Shown here: positions 4,190 to 32,388 of the stretch, one piece after another
Layout: every line of letters begins with the position of its first letter
Position numbering within the stretch: position 1 is the first letter of the stretch
Origin: a virus
Virus record (IMG/VR): IMGVR_UViG_3300032287_002105
Location: 1 to 32,672 of that record
DNA length: 32,672 bases
Strand: one strand, 5' to 3'
The notes under the pieces: model-generated
What the model saw: the letters and a program-made list of their open reading frames with translations, nothing else
Database searches by the model: none
What the model was told of the DNA's origin: nothing
Translations under genes and position numbers: made by a program

Positions 4190-5269
4190 TTATGAAACAC
4201 CTTGCTCGCGCAAGGCAGACAACGGAGTAATGCGAATGAGCTGGCCGTACTCCTGTGTCTGTTCTATATATATCATGCGGTCTATAGAGACTCCATTGTC
4301 GTAGAGCTTCATGCGAGCTGGTCCAAGGATGTCTGCCAGTACTTCACGGGGAAGCATGCCAATCAACTCATCACGGCTTAGGTCAGAAGGCACAGCACCA
4401 CCTTGAACCCCGGCGTATTCCATCCACGTAGCCGATATTGGTACTAGCATACACCTACACCGAGGATGCGACTCAAATGCATCGTTGGTTGCGTACACCT
4501 TGCCATGAAGCGCCAAGCATCCAACGCATGTCTTGTTGTCAATGACTGCAACACGGCGATATCCACGGACAACAGTAGGGTTTAGTCTATTGATCCGCTG
4601 CACAACGCTTCTAGACATTTCCATGACCTCTGTGGTCGAGATGTTCTCAGCGTAACTGTCAATCACATCGATGGCTTCGTTCACATCGCGGATAAAGTCT
4701 TCACGGGTTACATCTGGGTTGGTCACATTCTCGGTCATTCGAACAATGAACCTGGTGAACGTGTCTGTGGATGTTTGCCTAACTAAGTCGCCAATACTGT
4801 CTCCACCAAAGCTGAACCCGGGATTGAACTCATTCAGCTCAGGTGTGCGAATCTTAGGCTTCATCACACGCGCTGGCTTTGCACCCATGTAGGCAACAAT
4901 CACAGGTGGATAGAACAGCAAGGTAGCAGAGATAGACGCATCCTGAGCCGCTAGTACATCTTCCTGTACTGCTTCAGCGTACCTATTCTGCTTCTCTGGA
5001 TCCTGCAGCAAGTCAATGATTTCCCGGTAGAACATCTGAACCTGTAGTTCCGTAACATCAGGTTTGTGTGCCATGGCAAGGATATCTATAATGCGATCGT
5101 AGACTTCGACAAACGTGTTACTCAACTTATCCTTGGCTTGCAGTAACACACTGTCAATCTCGTCACGGTAGTAACCAAGAGCACCATTGACGTAGTTGTA
5201 GGTCTCCTTGGTGCTGATGCGTTCACAACAGCCGTCACCGCAGATGTATGCCATCCACTTGTTGTCCAT
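4190..5269 (-). CDS. Mu gpF-like minor head (head morphogenesis) protein
   Basis: From ATG 5269 the product is 359 aa. The C-terminal third carries the signature of the phage Mu gpF / SPP1 gp7 minor-capsid family: a helix with NISTTEVMEMSRS (about 209-221), then VIDNKTCVGCLALHG (242-256) with a CxxC, and SHPRCRCMLVP (267-277). These proteins sit at the portal and help capsid assembly or DNA entry. ATG 5269 is preferred over 5338 because AAGGAG lies about 9 bases before it. The gene is isolated: its usual neighbours, portal and scaffold or capsid genes, are not in the window, and the tail operon is more than 12 kb away. It ends at a strong terminator. Confidence 0.82.
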   Translation of the reverse strand: MDNKWMAYICGDGCCERISTKETYNYVNGALGYYRDEIDSVLLQAKDKLSNTFVEVYDRIIDILAMAHKPDVTELQVQMFYREIIDLLQDPEKQNRYAEAVQEDVLAAQDASISATLLFYPPVIVAYMGAKPARVMKPKIRTPELNEFNPGFSFGGDSIGDLVRQTSTDTFTRFIVRMTENVTNPDVTREDFIRDVNEAIDVIDSYAENISTTEVMEMSRSVVQRINRLNPTVVRGYRRVAVIDNKTCVGCLALHGKVYATNDAFESHPRCRCMLVPISATWMEYAGVQGGAVPSDLSRDELIGMLPREVLADILGPARMKLYDNGVSIDRMIYIEQTQEYGQLIRITPLSALREQGVS

Positions 5270-5282
5270 AAAAACATTCTCC

Positions 5283-5312
5283 TTGCTATACAACCAACAC
5301 TTGTTATAGAAT
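5283..5312 (+). promoter_or_regulatory. candidate sigma70-type promoter for the Tad2-like operon
   Basis: TTGCTA at 5283-5288 and TAGAAT at 5307-5312 are separated by 18 bases, in the divergent gap between the gpF-like gene and the plus-strand operon starting at 5359. Matches to the consensus are 4/6 and 5/6. Confidence 0.45.
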
Positions 5313-5358
5313 AGTGTAACGCATTTTGATGCTATCACGGCATCTGGGGAGTATTACA

Positions 5359-5571
5359 TTGGGGAAAAGACAAGGTTTTCAGTGGGCGTTTGGGGAGCTA
5401 GTCAAAGGTCAGCCAGTCATGCGCTTTGAGGCTCGTTGGTTTCTGCGCGTCGTAGAGAAGTCAATCATCCGTTACCGTGTTGATGGTGCTGGTAATCCAG
5501 TCTTTGAAGGCCATGCAACGCTGACATCTGCTGACTTACTTGCCAATGATTGGACAGAGTACAACGCATGA
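5359..5571 (+). CDS. Tad2-like (DUF2829) small protein A
   Basis: A 70-aa product if translation starts at TTG 5359, which has GGGGAG at 5346-5351; an ATG at 5326 is an alternative but overlaps the opposite gene's leader. It shows the DUF2829 pattern: FQWAFGELVKGQPVMRF near the start, then a beta-rich middle, ending with LTSADLLANDWTEY, the typical L-x-x-x-D-L-x-A-x-D-W end. DUF2829 is the Thoeris anti-defence 2 (Tad2) family, known to sequester cyclic ADP-ribose-type immune signals. Whether this copy binds a signal is unknown. Its stop overlaps the next start (ATGA). Confidence 0.62.
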   Translation: MGKRQGFQWAFGELVKGQPVMRFEARWFLRVVEKSIIRYRVDGAGNPVFEGHATLTSADLLANDWTEYNA

Positions 5572-5786
5572 CATTCGGTCAAGCTTATCCAAGGCTCCTT
5601 GAAGGTCGTGGGATACGACGCACAGTGTGGGAGCAAGGCATGGTCGTACGCTTATCAACGCTACAAGCTGACCATCTGGTTATCCACTATGTCGGTGGCA
5701 ACCGATCAGTCTTCTGTCCAGCCGCAACCGACTTGTACGACAAGGAAGTGCAAAACCTTAGAGATGATTGGGAGATTGTTTTATGA
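5568..5786 (+). CDS. Tad2-like (DUF2829) small protein B
   Basis: A 72-aa protein starting at ATG 5568 inside the stop of the previous gene (ATGA). The N-terminus MTFGQAYPRLLEGRGIRRTVW is the classic DUF2829 start (F-x-x-A-x-x-x-L-x-x-G-x-x-x-R-x-x-W), and the end EVQNLRDDWEIVL matches the family's D-W-E terminus. The middle is short and beta-rich. It is the second of four such domains in one operon; the copies differ too much to be recent duplicates. Family membership is a pattern judgement, and ligand binding is inference. Confidence 0.72.
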   Translation: MTFGQAYPRLLEGRGIRRTVWEQGMVVRLSTLQADHLVIHYVGGNRSVFCPAATDLYDKEVQNLRDDWEIVL

Positions 5787-6085
5787 CACACATAACAGTA
5801 AAAGATAACGGATTCAACTTCCCTGACCACTGGCTGGAAGTGTACGAAGTCTGTGACGACAACGGATACGGCGCCAAGGTTGCTCAGTTTGAGCAAGTTA
5901 TCATCGGTGCAGTCATCCAAGAGATGCGTAACGTCAAACATGGCACAATCCAACCAGAACCGCATCACCAGGAAGTATTGAATTGGGTAAACGAGCAAGT
6001 TGAGACCACTGACGTAGATGAATGGCTCCAAGAGTTGACTGAGATGCTCAATGAATTCAACTATGAGCTGGAGTACGAAGACTAA
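5783..6085 (+). CDS. acidic hypothetical protein in the Tad2-like operon
   Basis: A 100-aa, strongly acidic protein, starting at ATG 5783 overlapping the previous stop (ATGA) and ending one base into the next gene (TAATG). It begins MTHITVKDNGFNFPDHWLEVYEV and ends in a Glu/Asp-rich helix with a terminal LEYED. I do not recognise a family and it lacks the Tad2-like W and DW anchors. The high negative charge would fit a DNA mimic or a protein-binding inhibitor, which is speculation from composition and context. Confidence 0.7.
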   Translation: MTHITVKDNGFNFPDHWLEVYEVCDDNGYGAKVAQFEQVIIGAVIQEMRNVKHGTIQPEPHHQEVLNWVNEQVETTDVDEWLQELTEMLNEFNYELEYED

Positions 6086-6483
6086 TGGACAAGCGAAAGA
6101 AGCTGAGTGATGCAGACTTTAAAAAGATTCACCGTCTTTTGAAGCAAGGTGTCAAAGGCGAAGCGATCATGCAACTAATGGACATCAGTAGTACACACTT
6201 CTACAGGATCCAGCAAGCGTATCGCAATGGAGAAGTCAATCTAAAGCGCACGTCACTACACGGCATAACACGAATGGTTTCTGAAGGACTTCCATTCAGA
6301 CGCGCTTCATGGCCTGAGAAGCTTTACTACTACTGCGCCATTGATGAGCCATCAAAGTGGTTTATCCAAGTCAACAGAGAAACTGGAAACGAGCTGATTG
6401 CGTTTCAACTTGAGTTGTCTTTGGAAGACTTACTAGCCAAGGACTGGGTTGCTATTACTTGGGAGTCTGTAAATGAAGTTTAG
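6085..6483 (+). CDS. helix-turn-helix protein fused to a Tad2-like (DUF2829) domain
   Basis: A 132-aa protein in two parts. Residues about 7-50 (LSDADFKKIHRLLKQGVKGE, then MQLMDISSTHFYRIQQAYRNG) look like a homeodomain/resolvase-type helix-turn-helix. Residues about 58-126 follow the DUF2829 plan: LHGITRMVSEGLPFRRASW at the start and LSLEDLLAKDWVAI at the end. A DNA-binding head joined to a putative ligand-binding Tad2 fold would make a one-component sensor, possibly regulating this operon. ATG 6085 overlaps the previous stop by one base. Both domain calls rest on pattern reading. Confidence 0.65.
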   Translation: MDKRKKLSDADFKKIHRLLKQGVKGEAIMQLMDISSTHFYRIQQAYRNGEVNLKRTSLHGITRMVSEGLPFRRASWPEKLYYYCAIDEPSKWFIQVNRETGNELIAFQLELSLEDLLAKDWVAITWESVNEV

Positions 6484-6733
6484 TGAAGTGGTTGATGCAC
6501 TCATGGAAGGCAAGCGTGTACGTAAAACCAACTGGGATAACAGTACTGCTTATCTAATCTATGAAGCTGAATGTAATACCTTTGATTTCTATATGACATC
6601 AGATGGAGAGATTTACAAAATTCAGTCGTACACAACGTTAGACCTGACACCCAAAGACCTTACATGCGACTCTTGGGAAGTAATGGATGACCATGTTGTT
6701 GACGGCAACAAAGAGGTAGAATGTGACCAATAG
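6473..6733 (+). CDS. Tad2-like (DUF2829) small protein C
   Basis: An 86-aa protein, last of the operon, starting within the end of the HTH-fusion gene. MKFSEVVDALMEGKRVRKTNW is a textbook DUF2829 start, and LDLTPKDLTCDSWEVMDD supplies the terminal D-x-W-E pattern; a short polar tail follows. Known Tad2 proteins assemble as tetramers that hold immune signalling nucleotides. No other copy here is closer to the family pattern than this one. Confidence 0.75.
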   Translation: MKFSEVVDALMEGKRVRKTNWDNSTAYLIYEAECNTFDFYMTSDGEIYKIQSYTTLDLTPKDLTCDSWEVMDDHVVDGNKEVECDQ

Positions 6734-6734
6734 A

Positions 6735-6817
6735 ACCTGTCAAGCTTAGGCTCAAACCGACAGGTCAAGCATGGAGCCAGGGCAATAACTTTGGATTGGT
6801 AATTGAGACCTGGCTCC
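6735..6817 (+). other. structured non-coding segment with two strong hairpins
   Basis: Directly after the Tad2-like operon there are two perfect stems: ACCTGTC (6735-6741) with GACAGGT (6759-6765), and GGAGCCAGG (6773-6781) with CCTGGCTCC (6809-6817). ATTGGT (6795-6800), inside the second loop, can also pair with ACCAAT (6829-6834) outside it, a pseudoknot-like option. It could be a structured 3' UTR, an RNA element or a small RNA. No coding frame was seen here. Confidence 0.45.
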
Positions 6818-6908: not shown

Positions 6909-6981
6909 GAAACCCCTGTCAGATGTGTACCTGAGTAACCACCCTCAGATGAAGTGCATAAGTAGCAGTGGTTTCTTTTTT
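6909..6981 (+). terminator. terminator or attenuator-like element with alternative stems
   Basis: A run of six T (6976-6981) follows a 3' arm that can pair in two ways: GTGGTT (6968-6973) with AACCAC (6937-6942), or GGTTTC (6970-6975) with GAAACC (6909-6914). AACCAC also sits in the loop of a separate hairpin, CTGAG (6931-6935) with CTCAG (6944-6948). It probably ends the plus-strand operon; the competing pairings resemble an attenuator. Confidence 0.4.
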
Positions 6982-6984
6982 GCC

Positions 6985-7009
6985 AACTTGTAAGAGATCC
7001 TTACAAGTT
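6985..7009. repeat. perfect inverted repeat, 10-bp arms
   Basis: AACTTGTAAG (6985-6994), five-base centre, CTTACAAGTT (7000-7009). It lies between the T-run at 6981 and the twin operators. No T-run follows on either strand, so a protein-binding site or RNA hairpin is more likely than a terminator. Confidence 0.7.
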
Positions 7010-7015
7010 CAACAT

Positions 7016-7060
7016 TTTCCATTATGGAAATAGTTGTTATGGGTGGTTCCATTTTGGAAC
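7016..7060. promoter_or_regulatory. twin palindromic operators TTCCATTnTGGAA
   Basis: Two 15-bp palindromes share one core: TTTCCATTATGGAAA (7016-7030) and GTTCCATTTTGGAAC (7046-7060). Their centres are 30 bp apart, about three helical turns, which would place two dimers on the same DNA face. A candidate promoter begins at 7068. The binding protein is unknown; the HTH-Tad2 fusion is one candidate. Confidence 0.6.
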
Positions 7061-7067
7061 ATACCAG

Positions 7068-7097
7068 TTGTAAAGAAATCCTTGACTACTGTAGACT
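7068..7097 (+). promoter_or_regulatory. candidate promoter of a short transcription unit
   Basis: TTGTAA (7068-7073), 18-bp spacer, TAGACT (7092-7097). The -10 lies inside a small palindrome, CTGTAG-A-CTACAG. It is placed between the twin operators and a strong terminator at 7162-7188. Confidence 0.35.
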
Positions 7098-7099
7098 AC

Positions 7100-7189
7100 A
7101 GACGGCAGCAGCAATGCTGACTATGCTTGGAACAACAACTACATTTGGTGCTTGGTAAGCGAAAGACCACCTATAACGGGTGGTCTTTT
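7100..7189 (+). ncRNA. putative small RNA with a 14-codon ORF
   Basis: Between the promoter-like element and the terminator lies a hairpin with a GCAA tetraloop (CAGCA 7106-7110, TGCTG 7115-7119) and a tiny ORF at 7114-7158 encoding MLTMLGTTTTFGAW. There is no Shine-Dalgarno, and the ATG partly sits in the hairpin stem, so a non-coding RNA is at least as likely as a peptide. Confidence 0.35.
7162..7189 (+). terminator. strong terminator, possibly bidirectional
   Basis: AAAGACCACC (7162-7171) pairs perfectly with GGTGGTCTTT (7179-7188), followed by TTTTGTTTT on the plus strand. It also lies just past the stop of the minus-strand gene at 7200, so it can serve both directions. Confidence 0.88.
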
Positions 7190-7199
7190 GTTTTGCACA

Positions 7200-7424
7200 T
7201 TAATCCTTTGAGGGAGCGGGTGAAACCCGTCTCAACTCAAACACACAACCATCGTGGTCATTACAGTAAACAATAGCTGATCCACGCTTCCTGTAAACCA
7301 TAACCACACAACCATCAGCATCACGGACAACGTACTCAGTAGAAGCTGCACGTAACCTATTAACAGTTCGATCATGCTCCCACCTAGAAGCATCCCAACG
7401 ATCTGTATAACTACGTCTAGGCAT
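7200..7424 (-). CDS. small basic hypothetical protein
   Basis: A 74-aa protein, MPRRSYTDRWDASRWEHDRT at the start, then a beta-rich part (EYVVRDADGCVVMVYRKR, AIVYCNDHDGCVFELRRV). The two DGCV segments look like a short internal repeat about 26 residues apart. ATG 7424 has GGGGAA just upstream (complement of 7428-7433). The gene ends at the 7162-7189 terminator. The family is not recognised. An overlapping hydrophobic frame on the same strand (7232-7456) is a shadow. Confidence 0.6.
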   Translation of the reverse strand: MPRRSYTDRWDASRWEHDRTVNRLRAASTEYVVRDADGCVVMVYRKRGSAIVYCNDHDGCVFELRRVSPAPSKD

Positions 7425-8991: not shown

Positions 8992-9405
8992 TTATTTCCC
9001 CATTCTCAGTTCGTATGCACGGCGTGCATTTTCCATACGCATTTCATGCGCACGGCGTGCGTTTTCCATTCTAAGCTCATATGCAAATTGTGCATTTTTC
9101 ATGCGCAATTCATATGCGGTAGCAGGTGATACGGTTTCAGTTTTGACGGTTTCGATTTCTACAGGTTTCACGGTTTCAGGTTTCACCGCTTCAACGGTGT
9201 TAAAGCTCACACCGTAATTACCGCTACACACACACACCATTGCAAAAATAACCACACCACACCACATCGACAAAACCTTAAACATCGGCAATATAACCTG
9301 TTCAAAGTAACCGCGCGTGAAATCGATGTGCGCAGATCCAATGTTATAACTTGCAATAATCGCGATAGTTACCGCGATAATCAACAAAACGTTTTTGATT
9401 TTCAT
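8992..9405 (-). CDS. membrane protein with 11-residue helical repeats
   Basis: A 137-aa protein. Two transmembrane segments are seen at about 4-19 (KNVLLIIAVTIAIIAS) and 42-60 (FKVLSMWCGVVIFAMVCVC). A Val/Glu/Thr-rich linker follows (ETVKPVEIETVKTETV). The C-terminus has nearly four copies of an 11-residue unit, AYELRMENARR, at 97-137. Eleven-residue repeats often form right-handed coiled coils. The start has GGGGAAA upstream (9414-9420 complement), and the gene is the first of an operon with a clear promoter and operator. Function unknown. Confidence 0.72.
   Translation of the reverse strand: MKIKNVLLIIAVTIAIIASYNIGSAHIDFTRGYFEQVILPMFKVLSMWCGVVIFAMVCVCSGNYGVSFNTVEAVKPETVKPVEIETVKTETVSPATAYELRMKNAQFAYELRMENARRAHEMRMENARRAYELRMGK
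8995..9117. repeat. 33-bp imperfect tandem repeat, about 3.7 copies
   Basis: These repeats encode the 11-residue units at the end of the membrane protein. The DNA copies differ mainly by synonymous or conservative changes, consistent with expansion by slippage or unequal recombination. Confidence 0.8.
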
Positions 9406-27213: not shown

Positions 27214-27590
27214 GGCAGTACCTGTGCGATGTTGTCGCGAACAATGCGTTCTACGTTGTCCTTCTGCTCTACCATTGCTTTAACCAAGAACGGGTTTCCA
27301 CCGTATGCCACGATAGGCGCACGGTGTCCTTCGTGAAGGAAGATAGCGTAGTGAACAGTCTTTCCAACCCAGTTGACTCCGACCGGGTCAGCGATAACTT
27401 CAGCCTGGAACTTGCTTACCTTACGTCCGCGAATACTTTGCAGAAGTTCCCCGGTGTCAACGTTTGGTGTTGCATGTCGCTTGGCTGCCTGTGCTACCTT
27501 CTGTGCTGCGGGACGCAAGCCAGAAGCAACGCCACTCTTTATGCTGAGTGACACAGAACGAACGTTACTAGTGGCTGTGACGTATTTCAT
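27210..27590 (-). CDS. HK97 gp10-like head-tail connector/minor tail protein
   Basis: A 126-aa protein with the family pattern: a helical region rich in Lys/Ala (GLRPAAQKVAQAAKRHATPN), VDTGELLQSIRGRKV, then VHYAIFLHEGHRAP and NPFLVKAM near the end. HK97 gp10-type proteins link head and tail. Start and stop overlap the neighbours (TAATG, ATGA), so it is coupled to the beta-helix gene above and the terminator below. Confidence 0.82.
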   Translation of the reverse strand: MKYVTATSNVRSVSLSIKSGVASGLRPAAQKVAQAAKRHATPNVDTGELLQSIRGRKVSKFQAEVIADPVGVNWVGKTVHYAIFLHEGHRAPIVAYGGNPFLVKAMVEQKDNVERIVRDNIAQVLP

Positions 27591-29671
27591 TATCCGCTAC
27601 TTAGTTGTACCAAGAATGGACCAAAGGTAGTTGTAACACTGCTCATTGTACGCTCTACAACGATGCGGTATGTACCTGCTGTCGTAACTCCAAGAGCATT
27701 CCACGACAGGTTAGGCGACCATCTGATAACACCGCCATCAGCGTACGCGACTGTAGGTGTTACGTTATTGACGACTGCCGTACCCGCTTGGTTTCGTACA
27801 CGCATAACAAGCGTTGATCCAGCAACAGATACTGAGCCACCACTACTGTCAATCAACACCATCTCAATGTTGGGAACCGTTGAAAGAAACTGATTGACTT
27901 CAGTGATGACACTCTCAATAGCGTTCTGCTTGATAAGAAACGGGCCTTGTCGAAGCTGAATGCGCGATGCTTCAGACCCAGTAGAAACCTTAGTGTCAAG
28001 ATAATCACCAAAGGTATTAGGTATTGTATGGTTGGACTTTGCCTCATCCCAGACTTGATTAGGAACATCTAGTACATATGCCTCTGTAACTCCTACTACG
28101 TTACGAATCTCGTTGATAACACCTCCAAAAATTAGACCGGTATTGTAACCAGAGACGTCTTCCCCCCAGACAGCCGAGGCAGTCTGCGCTGCCGTCAATC
28201 CACCACTACTGAGCTTCACCGTCATTACCGCACCGTTAGTACCGCTTGCACCACGCACCACGATAGTGACATCATCAGCACCAGCAGCCAAAGCAGCATC
28301 GGGAATGTCTAAGCGATACACGCCCGGCATATTGGTAGCATCTACCTCGGCAAAGCCACCAGCAGTCCACGCCTGAGCGATTGTACGGGCTACTAGAGGG
28401 ATAGATACGCTTGCAGTCCTTGTGCGGTTGTATCGGGCTGTGAGACCGCTTGTGGAGGCTGTAAGACCTGTAGCACCGAGATACAGCTCGATGCTTTGTG
28501 ACGTGCTACCTGGTGCGATGGTGATGGTAGACGCGTTGCGCTCGGTTGGTAAATATTGACCTGTAGCCTGATTACTGTAGTACTCAATCGGCCCGATTGT
28601 TGGTGTTGATGGAGCGAGCCACGTCACACCGTAAAAGTCGGTAGTGTCTGAGTTTGTGTTAATGCCAGCGTTTTGCGATGCAGAAATATTGTGATTTGCC
28701 CAGAATGGAAGGTTTGCCCATCCAGACAATCTAGACAGTGTAAAGTCAGGACTCACAAATGCTCTTGTTAGAGAGCCTGTACCAGTGGCTACATTTGTTC
28801 GCTCTGTTGAGCAGTTGAAAATATTGTAAGACTCAACATAGTCTCCTGTTACAGTTGCGGCAACACCAGTCGGGCAATCAAATATACAGTTTTGAATCGT
28901 GACCGGAAACGTCTGACTTATTCTAAATGTGCTATATGGACGTATTCCGACAGGTGCTATAAATCGACAGTTTATGACTTTTACACCACCAAATGTAGCT
29001 GATGTACTCCCACTGTCAATACGCAATGCACTAAGAGTATTAGAACTTGTATTTTGATTAATAAAAATATTGTTTCTAAATAAACTTTGCGAGTCATATG
29101 ATGAACCGGGAATATTCGGAGTGTATGCAACATGACCAATAAAAACTGAATCCTCAACTGTAACGCCACGACTGCCAGCTGTACAAGTAAAGTAATAAGC
29201 AAATGATTCAGTGGATTGACTTGGACTATAAAATCCACACCGTTGCACGATGGAATAGATACCAGTTATCTCAAAAATTTTGCCAAAAGCTGGTGATGCG
29301 CCTGCTTGATAACCAACTATGTAAATATCGGTCAAAGTTACATAATCTTTAACGACTGATAATGCAAAACCAGACGTAGTGGTAGTTGGCCCACTAAAGT
29401 TTGTAATGATGACAGGCCCAGCCGTTATGCCACTAAATAGTGATGCTGTAGGGTTGCCTGAAATTGTTACACGCTGTGCGTTACTGGTTGGGTTTGTAAA
29501 TGCACCAGTAAAATTTCCACGATAAACACCAGGAGCAATATACAAAGTGTCACCAGGAGCAATGCCTGTTGCACCAATAGCCTTGGTTATAGTTGCCCAC
29601 GCTTGATTTGTGGCTGCACCAGTACCAGTGTTGACATCGCTTCCATCGGGTCTAACATAATAAGTAGCCAT
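27590..29671 (-). CDS. right-handed beta-helix fibre/spike protein, copy 2
   Basis: A 693-aa protein. MATYYVRPDGSDVNTGTGAA, then LYIAPGVYRGNFTGAF and repeated strand-turn units (VTLTDIYIVGYQ, VTVEDSVFIGHVAY, VKVINCRFIAPVG, VTIQNCIFDCPTG) are typical of pectate-lyase-like beta helices (residues 1-290). A conserved linker with TERNASTITIAPGSTSQSIE leads to a collagen-free beta part, and the C-terminus (MVLIDSSGGSVSVAGSTLVM, GTYRIVVERTMSSVTTTFGP) is an Ig-like domain like baseplate upper proteins. It is a close paralogue of the gene at 30196. No catalytic site is identifiable. Confidence 0.78.
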   Translation of the reverse strand: MATYYVRPDGSDVNTGTGAATNQAWATITKAIGATGIAPGDTLYIAPGVYRGNFTGAFTNPTSNAQRVTISGNPTASLFSGITAGPVIITNFSGPTTTTSGFALSVVKDYVTLTDIYIVGYQAGASPAFGKIFEITGIYSIVQRCGFYSPSQSTESFAYYFTCTAGSRGVTVEDSVFIGHVAYTPNIPGSSYDSQSLFRNNIFINQNTSSNTLSALRIDSGSTSATFGGVKVINCRFIAPVGIRPYSTFRISQTFPVTIQNCIFDCPTGVAATVTGDYVESYNIFNCSTERTNVATGTGSLTRAFVSPDFTLSRLSGWANLPFWANHNISASQNAGINTNSDTTDFYGVTWLAPSTPTIGPIEYYSNQATGQYLPTERNASTITIAPGSTSQSIELYLGATGLTASTSGLTARYNRTRTASVSIPLVARTIAQAWTAGGFAEVDATNMPGVYRLDIPDAALAAGADDVTIVVRGASGTNGAVMTVKLSSGGLTAAQTASAVWGEDVSGYNTGLIFGGVINEIRNVVGVTEAYVLDVPNQVWDEAKSNHTIPNTFGDYLDTKVSTGSEASRIQLRQGPFLIKQNAIESVITEVNQFLSTVPNIEMVLIDSSGGSVSVAGSTLVMRVRNQAGTAVVNNVTPTVAYADGGVIRWSPNLSWNALGVTTAGTYRIVVERTMSSVTTTFGPFLVQLSSG

Positions 29672-30017: not shown

Positions 30018-30199
30018 CACTTCTTCACCTTCCTTGCATCAATAGCAAGCATGACCACATCACGTACCTTTTCAAGGTCAGACGTAGACAGGAAGTCGAT
30101 GTTCTCTACAATCTGGTTGACCAACAGAATCTCACCAAAAGGTATCTTGACCTCTGGTAAACCAGTCTTCTTCTTTAATAGTTTACTTATCCAGCTCAT
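30017..30199 (-). CDS. 60-aa hypothetical protein
   Basis: MSWISKLLKKKTGLPEVKIP, then FGEILLVNQIVENIDFLSTS, DLEKVRDVVMLAIDARKVKK. Basic N-terminus, helical remainder. The start overlaps the beta-helix copy 1 stop (ATGA) and its stop overlaps the 40-aa gene (TGATG). It marks the boundary between the two duplicated units. Not recognised. Confidence 0.7.
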   Translation of the reverse strand: MSWISKLLKKKTGLPEVKIPFGEILLVNQIVENIDFLSTSDLEKVRDVVMLAIDARKVKK

Positions 30200-32388
30200 T
30201 GCACTTGTACCTTTATCTGCAACGGACCAAACGTTGTCGTCGTACCACTCACTGTGCGATCAACGAACAACCGATACATGCCAGCAGGACAACCAATGCT
30301 TAGATACGTCCCTGGTGCTGTCCATCTGACGATTCCACCTGTTCCGTATTCTATTGTAGGTGTACCTGTCTCTACCACCGTGCTCGTCACATCTAGGATA
30401 CGCAAGCCAAGTGTTGCCCCTGTGACAGGGACAAGGTTGTTGTCTCCATCAAACAACTGCAACTCAAACGCAGGTGTGTCTGTAGTGAACGCTTCAATGA
30501 TGTCGCCTTGCGTAGTGCCTGTCTGCGTCATCTGGAATCGACCAACAAACACTCGAGTAGCTGCACCACCGATTAGGTTACTGTCAATGTAGTCTGTGCC
30601 GTTGTGAAGCAGAGCACCTTCCAACTCATTAGCGGCAGCAACACTTGTGGATACGCGGACAACGTCAGAGTCAACGTAGCCTGTGCCATCGTGGAGCAAT
30701 GCACCCTTGAGTGCAGTAGCAGCAGCAGTGTCGTTAGCAACAGCGTGGATGTCAGCATCCACACGTGACACACCACCAGACTGATGAAGAGTAACCAACC
30801 CTTCTTTGGAGTCTTGATCCGCACGTAGAACATTCCAACCAAACGTTCCATGTGTTGTATGGTCGTTGGTCAATGCGTTCCATACGGCACTAGCAGTCTG
30901 TGCCGTTGTAAGACCACCGGAACTGAGCTTGATGCTCATCACTGCACCGTTGGTACCTGATGCTCCTCTGACTACAACTGTGACGTCGTCTGCACCAGCG
31001 GCTAAAGCCTCGTTTGGAATATCCAAACGATATACGCCAGGCATCGTGTTAGGGTTAACTTCAGCGAACCCACCACTTGTCCAGTTCTGTGTGATGTTAC
31101 GTGCTTGGAGGTTTATCTGTACGTCTGCACTACGTGTACGGTTGTAATAGGCTGAGAGACCAGAGGTGGAGGCTGTGAGACCTATAGCACCAAGATACAG
31201 TTCGATGGATTGTGAGGTTGAGCCGGGAGCGATTGTGATTGTGCTGGCGTTGCGCTCCGTTGGAACATAACGACCAGTTGATGAACTGTCGAAATATTCA
31301 ATCGCACCCATTGTTGGAGTAGATGGCGCAAGCCACGTTACACCATAGATATCAGTGGCAGGTGCGCCCGTTGATGTGCCGGCGTTCTGCGATGCACTAC
31401 TTGAATGGTTAGCCCAGAATGGATAATTCCCCCACCCAGTGACCCGGCTTAGGTTGTAGTCAGGAGATATAAACGCACGAGTAGAAGAACCTGTACCTGT
31501 GGCAACATTACCTCTAGCAAATCCACAATTGAAAATATTGTGCGACTCAACCATCTGTCCGTCAGCATTGTTAACATTTATTCCATATGATGTTTCGAAA
31601 ATGCAGTTCCGAACTGTTATTGGGAAACTACTAGAAAAATTATTAGCAGGATATGGAGCAATTCCAGTATTACCAATGAACCGACAGTTTTGTACTGTTA
31701 CACCACCGATATGTGCCCCATATGGGCTATAAAGAATCAAACACGCTGTCGGGGTATATTGCCCCGGATTTTGAAAAATACAATCCTTAAAACTAGACAG
31801 TGAATTCCACGCTGATGTAGTTGTACTTCCATCCCCAATTCTAACTGGAGCCATAAATACACATTTTGTAACTGTGAATCCGGTCGTACCCTGAATCAAT
31901 CCAAATATAACAGCGGCGTTAATGTCAACACTGTTAACTGGAGTATAAAATCCACACGATGTGACAATGTTTGATGTACCAGATATTCCAAAAATGCTAC
32001 CGTAGTTACCAGAACCACCTGTTGTATAACCAGTAATGTGTACGTTTTGCAATGTAATATAAGATTTTGCAATACCTAAAGTCGCTGAACCTGTTGTTGA
32101 GTATAAATTGACATAGTTTGTAATAATAACCGGTCCAGCAGATACACCGGTAAATTGTGAAGCGGTCGGGTCACCAGATATCGTGATGCGTTGCCCTTCG
32201 CTTGCTGGGTTTGCGAATGCCGCTGTGACCGACTCACGATAAACACCGGGAGCAATATAGAGCGTGTCACCGACACCTATGCCTGTTGCTCCGAGTGCCT
32301 TGCCTACAGTTTTCCACGCCTGATTAGTAGCAGGGCCTGTGCCAGTGTTTAAATCACTACCATCAGTCCTAACGTAATACGTTGCCAT
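30196..32388 (-). CDS. right-handed beta-helix fibre/spike protein, copy 1
   Basis: A 730-aa paralogue of the 27590-29671 protein. The N-terminal beta helix (ITLQNVHITGYTTG, FTVTKCVFMAPVRI, VTVQNCRFIGNTGI, ITVRNCIFETSYGI) and the TERNASTITIAPGSTSQSIE linker match copy 2. The later part differs: it has two related segments (LKGALLHDGTGYVDSDVV, LEGALLHNGTDYIDSNLI), then an Ig-like C-terminus (FELQLFDGDNNLVPVTGATL, PAGMYRLFVDRTVSGTTTTF) like baseplate upper proteins. Conserved ends with a changed middle suggest domain swapping for host range. No enzymatic residues identified. Confidence 0.78.
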   Translation of the reverse strand: MATYYVRTDGSDLNTGTGPATNQAWKTVGKALGATGIGVGDTLYIAPGVYRESVTAAFANPASEGQRITISGDPTASQFTGVSAGPVIITNYVNLYSTTGSATLGIAKSYITLQNVHITGYTTGGSGNYGSIFGISGTSNIVTSCGFYTPVNSVDINAAVIFGLIQGTTGFTVTKCVFMAPVRIGDGSTTTSAWNSLSSFKDCIFQNPGQYTPTACLILYSPYGAHIGGVTVQNCRFIGNTGIAPYPANNFSSSFPITVRNCIFETSYGINVNNADGQMVESHNIFNCGFARGNVATGTGSSTRAFISPDYNLSRVTGWGNYPFWANHSSSASQNAGTSTGAPATDIYGVTWLAPSTPTMGAIEYFDSSSTGRYVPTERNASTITIAPGSTSQSIELYLGAIGLTASTSGLSAYYNRTRSADVQINLQARNITQNWTSGGFAEVNPNTMPGVYRLDIPNEALAAGADDVTVVVRGASGTNGAVMSIKLSSGGLTTAQTASAVWNALTNDHTTHGTFGWNVLRADQDSKEGLVTLHQSGGVSRVDADIHAVANDTAAATALKGALLHDGTGYVDSDVVRVSTSVAAANELEGALLHNGTDYIDSNLIGGAATRVFVGRFQMTQTGTTQGDIIEAFTTDTPAFELQLFDGDNNLVPVTGATLGLRILDVTSTVVETGTPTIEYGTGGIVRWTAPGTYLSIGCPAGMYRLFVDRTVSGTTTTFGPLQIKVQVQ

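Follow-up and report, generated by a model that had tools for sequence, protein, structure and literature searches.

Tad2-like genes, one of them fused to an HTH domain, in a hypervariable operon of a 32.7-kb virus record

The question raised by this locus is why a virus would carry four divergent Tad2-like genes in one operon, and what these would do in its host. The window is the entire virus record IMGVR_UViG_3300032287_002105 (32.7 kb; 32,672 nt). Five small plus-strand ORFs, A to E, occupy positions 5359-6733 and overlap or abut one another, with junctions of 4- to 11-nt overlaps or TAATG (Table 1). Every tested gene gave a dN/dS of 0.01-0.21 against its relatives, ratios which are rough as several comparisons are near saturation at synonymous sites. 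This signature of purifying selection argues that A-E are five real genes.

Table 1. Features of the operon and its flanks in the window.
Feature	Position	Strand	Description
Divergent promoter/leader region	5267-5340		between the minus-strand head gene and A; from an alignment of eight loci
Gene A	5359-5571	+	70 aa; TTG start, GGGGAG Shine-Dalgarno; divergent Tad2-like
Gene B	5568-5786	+	72 aa; ATGA overlap with A; Tad2-like
Gene C	5783-6085	+	100 aa; ATGA overlap with B; very acidic
Gene D	6085-6483	+	TAATG junction with C; HTH and Tad2-like
Gene D, N-terminal HTH domain	6085-6249	+	residues 1-55, pI 10.2
Gene D, C-terminal Tad2-like domain	6250-6483	+	residues 56-132
Gene E	6473-6733	+	86 aa; 11-nt overlap with D; Tad2-like
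Likely terminator	7160-7195	+	GACCACC-loop-GGTGGTC-TTTTGTTTT; hairpin and T run

A preliminary description, made from the sequence, held that four of the five overlapping genes are Tad2-like (DUF2829/PF11195), and this is borne out by Pfam, by hold-out HMMs and by the fold of A. With the PF11195 'Tad2-like' model, E (2e-6) and B (9.5e-6) exceed the Pfam cut-off, and D (0.0038) and A (0.12) fall short of it; a search of the whole 32.7-kb record with PF11195 gave matches at these four genes only. With hold-out HMMs, for which the profile was made without the orthologue group under test, scores of 7e-12, 2e-7 and 8e-6 were obtained for E, B and D, respectively. Both D (1.2e-4) and E also match phrog_643, which is labelled 'transcriptional regulator'. 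The Tad2-like family profile retrieves the sequences of solved Tad2 proteins at E-values of 4e-8 to 1e-4. The paralogues of the window are highly divergent, with a pairwise identity to E of only ~15-20%.

Gene A is the most divergent copy. Its hold-out score was 0.72 (10.3 bits; the best of 3,420 shuffled sequences reached 8.1), and its orthologue in the related contig L009 scored 3e-5. A was modelled with AlphaFold at a pLDDT of 91, and this model matches all ten of the listed Tad2 entries, from SPO1, Spt, Mo/Mod and Hgm/AcrIIA7, with Z of 9.2-10.4 and an rmsd of 1.8-2.1 Å over 60-65 of its 70 residues. The next structure match after the Tad2 entries has a Z of 5.8. Comparison with Tad2 structures, which had been proposed in the preliminary description, thus gives the Tad2 fold for A, the copy modelled. 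The sequence of the window copy was in itself unconvincing, and A is assigned as Tad2-like on its orthologues and predicted fold. For B, D and E a Tad2 fold is predicted from sequence.

The gcADPR pocket of Tad2 is formed by the β1-β2 loop, the β3-β4 loop, β4 and helix α3 (PMC12043709, a review). Solved Tad2 proteins carry a GWNGK(G/N)M loop and, where the alignment shows that segment, W-x-P-S-x-x-D or a close variant. These two segments are taken to correspond to the pocket elements of the review, and the pockets were assessed by motif rather than by listed ligand contacts. The GWNGK loop is absent from all four copies. In the W-x-P-S-Q-x-D segment before helix α3, A, D and E are without W-x-P. 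The segments read ARW-FLR and ATLTSADLLANDW in A, VWEQGMVVR and GNRSVFCPAATDL in B, SWPEKLYYY and LELSLEDLLAKDW in D, and NWDNSTAYL and TTLDLTPKDLTCDSW in E. The B family retains GNR-x-V(F/W)-x-P-x-x-x-D-L in a profile alignment to MoTad2, and its pocket-side segment, GNRSVFCPAATDL, is the nearest of the four to canonical Tad2. As B keeps most of the motif, while the scaffold but not the motif is preserved in A, D and E, the ligands of these proteins, if any, probably differ from those of known Tad2s or bind in another way. With the WNGK loop in no copy and much of the second motif in B only, Thoeris is at most a putative target. The suggestion that the operon is a panel of sponges for different immune signals therefore stands in part: the four Tad2-like domains and an accessory-type variability favour it, but the motifs of solved Tad2s are missing or altered, with most retained in B.

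Gene D had been counted as one further Tad2-like copy, an account that has to be amended because of its additional N-terminal HTH. The HTH_23 match of the window protein (4e-4) is below the cut-off, but orthologues of D exceed Pfam HTH cut-offs (e.g. HTH_7 at 3.7e-9 in L007). The two domains also occur separately: L009 encodes a free-standing homologue of the D Tad2 domain without an HTH, and free HTH genes are found in the cassettes of L055, L058 and L065. The HTH of D had no match to known Aca families in the libraries searched. A profile search for HTH-Tad2 fusions revealed viral contigs (L079-L095) in which the fusion joins an A-type Tad2 domain to a preceding region with an HTH pair unlike the HTH of D. 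Of this pair, one HTH has Pfam support and the other is read here as an HTH-like segment. The three such contigs tested share with the window only a distant head protein (32-34% identity), so that HTHs are joined to two types of Tad2 domain in more than a single lineage. An example of this fusion lies at 3933-4496 of L081, and in this group further Tad2-like genes lie downstream of the fusion, together with an HNH endonuclease and apparent terminase genes. As a fusion of HTH and Tad2-like domain, D is probably regulatory, and hence so is at least one of the copies in the window.

The operon is one version of a hypervariable cassette behind a conserved promoter region. Between A and the divergent head gene lie 74 bases that are almost invariant in eight loci, and 14 viral contigs each have a single occurrence of the core of this region. 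It includes an invariant imperfect palindrome of 24 bp, CTATA-N14-TATAG (5286-5309), which could be an operator or a pair of divergent -10/promoter elements. A sigma-70-like site upstream of A (5283-5312) scores no better than chance. Gene A is the first behind the promoter region in every contig read past that region. Behind A come an acidic protein, an HTH that is either free or fused, and 0-4 additional Tad2-like genes. With X and T denoting further Tad2-like genes, a few of them assigned by visual inspection of the sequence pattern, the versions are A-B-C-D-E (the window, L005 and L006), A-B-C-D-X-E (L046), A-B-C-D-E'-E (L007), A-B-C-D-E-E'' (L008), A-C-D-X (L050), A-C-D (L052-L054), A-B-C'-HTH-T-T (L055), A-Mom-C'-HTH-T-T-T-T (L058) and A-C'-HTH-T-T-T (L065). 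In L058, the second gene of the cassette (6918-7355) is an insertion that encodes a DNA modification protein of the Mom-like type (phrog_1384, 6e-34); Mom-like proteins are a known anti-restriction type. Larger phages have larger sets: in G006 and G007, 12 PF11195 matches fall in ~10 ORFs, among them the ORF of a 232-aa protein with multiple Tad2-like segments. Runs of nearly consecutive Tad2-like genes, up to eight in number, are seen at 5820-8715 of L010, 5879-8428 of L012 and 3428-5494 of L076, and contigs of this type (up to 166 kb) encode proteins of ~190-290 aa with several Tad2-like segments.

Downstream of the operon, the hairpin listed in Table 1 is likely to be a transcription terminator, as predicted from its fold (-24.2 kcal/mol, z -7.2) and T run; the same element is present in L046, L055 and L058. 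Just 3' of E there is a long inverted repeat (6773-6817), GGAGCCAGG ... CCTGGCTCC, with a fold of -28.8 kcal/mol (z -3.9) and without a T run. A pattern search for this repeat was negative in the eight relatives checked.

Divergence within the operon was compared with that of its surroundings using L046, the nearest distinct relative. Among the proteins flanking the operon, identity to L046 is 84-95% for ThyX, dUTPase, phosphoesterase and head proteins and 72% for the methylase. For D, identity is 95% in the HTH and 50% in the Tad2 domain; for E it is 68%. The DNA identity of D drops to 35-42% in the middle of the Tad2 domain, the peak of divergence. A domain swap in D relative to L046 was considered and set aside, since synonymous sites are near-saturated in both halves and a faster divergence of the Tad2 half fits equally. 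Relatives of E in other phages are 64-84% identical, and horizontal transfer of E between phages fits its 64-76% identity in contigs whose records are without the head gene of the window. A nucleotide search against named phages gave no match, and proteins B, D and E and the array gene of L010 likewise had no matches in named phages. Relatives of D or E were not found in GTDB genomes.

Gene E ends in a C-terminal tail, DDHVVDGNKEV (6689-6730), which is portable between proteins. A tail of the form [D/N]H[I/V]VDxN[K/E]KV is also seen in L007, L008, L009, L010-L012, L065 and L076. Where present, it is on exactly one Tad2-like protein per array, yet on differing Tad2 subtypes.

The preliminary description had further noted a very acidic fifth protein of no known family, and C agrees with this. 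The protein has a pI of 4.2, a net charge of -18 and a mostly helical model, and no match was found in PDB, BFVD, Pfam, PHROGs or NCBIfam. Structure searches with the model, of pLDDT 73 only, likewise found nothing. In near relatives C is a constant member of the cassette alongside A and D, and any role for it there is putative. C' is also acidic; homology of C with the acidic proteins of L009/L055 was not established, as hhalign gave a probability of 5% and a profile search was negative.

The leading explanation, judged about as likely as not, is that the operon is a counter-defence cassette of Tad2-fold sponges for nucleotide signals, with D as an autoregulator of the HTH-Tad2 type resembling Aca proteins and AcrIIA15. 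The Tad2-fold proteins would soak up nucleotide immune signals of the host. D would bind the promoter of the cassette and limit its expression, as Aca proteins and AcrIIA15 do. Mid-domain sequence and gene set turn over quickly among related phages, and such rapid change would be expected were each set fitted to the signals of its hosts. A conserved promoter region with variable genes behind it, the apparent transfer of E and the Mom-like neighbour fit the behaviour of an accessory counter-defence locus, and make a panel of sponges reasonable, though unproven. Against this, PF11195 is a wide family, and the label of phrog_643 points to regulation. The candidate operator is identical in loci with differing HTHs and is thus a poor fit to a simple pairing of one HTH with one operator. 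It is rather unlikely, in our estimation, that D and the double-HTH/A-type fusions are phage transcription factors which sense an immune nucleotide via the Tad2 domain and derepress the sponge array on alarm.

The known systems with which this cassette can be compared differ from it in several respects. Tad2 (Thoeris anti-defence 2; SPO1 gp34.65, SptTad2, MoTad2 and HgmTad2/AcrIIA7) shares the PF11195/DUF2829 domain, the fold of the modelled copy A, the small size of a phage protein, and the F..A...L..G...R..W start and D-W end. The copies in the window are ~15-20 residues shorter than Tad2, without the GWNGK loop and mostly without W-x-P-S-Q-x-D, and occur as four paralogues in one operon, one of them HTH-fused. 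In Acr-aca operons, AcrIIA15 and AcrIIA1, counter-defence genes that are small and variable are likewise accompanied by an HTH gene, or the effector is fused to an HTH of ~55 residues. In AcrIIA15, a 56-residue HTH represses its own promoter and the C-terminal domain blocks Cas9 (PMC10901769). In D, however, the effector domain is Tad2-like rather than anti-Cas9, and promoter binding and repression are putative. The phage proteins Tad1, Acb2, Acb4 and RyDEP are oligomers and bind nucleotide signals of immunity, as the copies in the window may do, but their folds differ; Acb4 has been reported to have no structural homology to Tad2 (PMC11722364).

Other explanations of the operon have to be weighed against the counter-defence cassette. 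The Tad2-like fold may instead serve gene regulation or another phage process, with the A and D types as HTH-linked regulators and the free copies as co-regulators or antagonists. The fusion of both A-type and D-type domains to HTHs, the phrog_643 label and the loss of the known Tad2 pocket motifs speak for such a role. It is nevertheless considered unlikely, since fast turnover, up to ~10 paralogues per phage, the apparent transfer of E and the Mom-like neighbour better suit accessory counter-defence. It is also conceivable, in line with the hetero-oligomers suggested in the preliminary description, that the proteins form mixed tetramers. The pockets of Tad2 combine protomers of different dimers, so that paralogues which differ in their half-pockets would give a small set of genes access to many composite pockets. 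Known Tad2 assembles as a homotetramer whose protomers share pockets (PMC12043709), and the four paralogues are co-translated from overlapping genes. However, copies are gained and lost independently among relatives, A-C-D alone suffices in L052-L054, and the low identity of the paralogues to E suggests that interfaces may be incompatible, which makes mixed tetramers quite unlikely.

A function as anti-CRISPRs of the AcrIIA7 kind is suggested by the common domain family: AcrIIA7 carries DUF2829, DUF2829 proteins near its homologues were recorded in 2019 (PMC6739104), and its structures are among the matches of A. PDB titles show this same protein, also named HgmTad2, with 1',2'-cADPR and cGG, so sponge activity is the better documented, and with no pointer to Cas9 in the present data an anti-CRISPR role is very unlikely. 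Neutral amplification, by which duplicated small genes would drift without a shared function, could account for the gain and loss of copies among relatives and for the strong divergence of the paralogues. This appears highly improbable given intact frames largely under purifying selection (by the dN/dS range above for all tested genes), the overlapping genes, the near-invariant promoter region and the similarly designed arrays in separate phage groups.

While the fold and the family are already known, the array with HTH-Tad2 fusions behind a conserved promoter may be a new aspect; no description of such arrays was found in the open literature, the most relevant recent papers lying outside the search. 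Should the paralogues differ in the signals they bind, a single operon would provide a collection of pockets from which sponge sequences could be related to immune signals, and it might lead to nucleotide signals of immunity so far undiscovered. The HTH-Tad2 fusions raise the question of whether phages sense the immune signalling of the host as well as repressing it. As a simple anchor, the conserved promoter region could be used to mine further cassettes.

Elsewhere in the window, the minus strand at 8992-9405 encodes a protein of 137 aa whose start is hydrophobic and whose C-terminal part has a tandem repeat of the AYELRMENARRA type; there was no PHROG match for this protein. Two large neighbouring paralogues, at 27590-29671 and 30196-32388 on the minus strand, both start with MATYYVR.DGSD.NTGTG.ATNQAW and are probably duplicated tail or fibre proteins.
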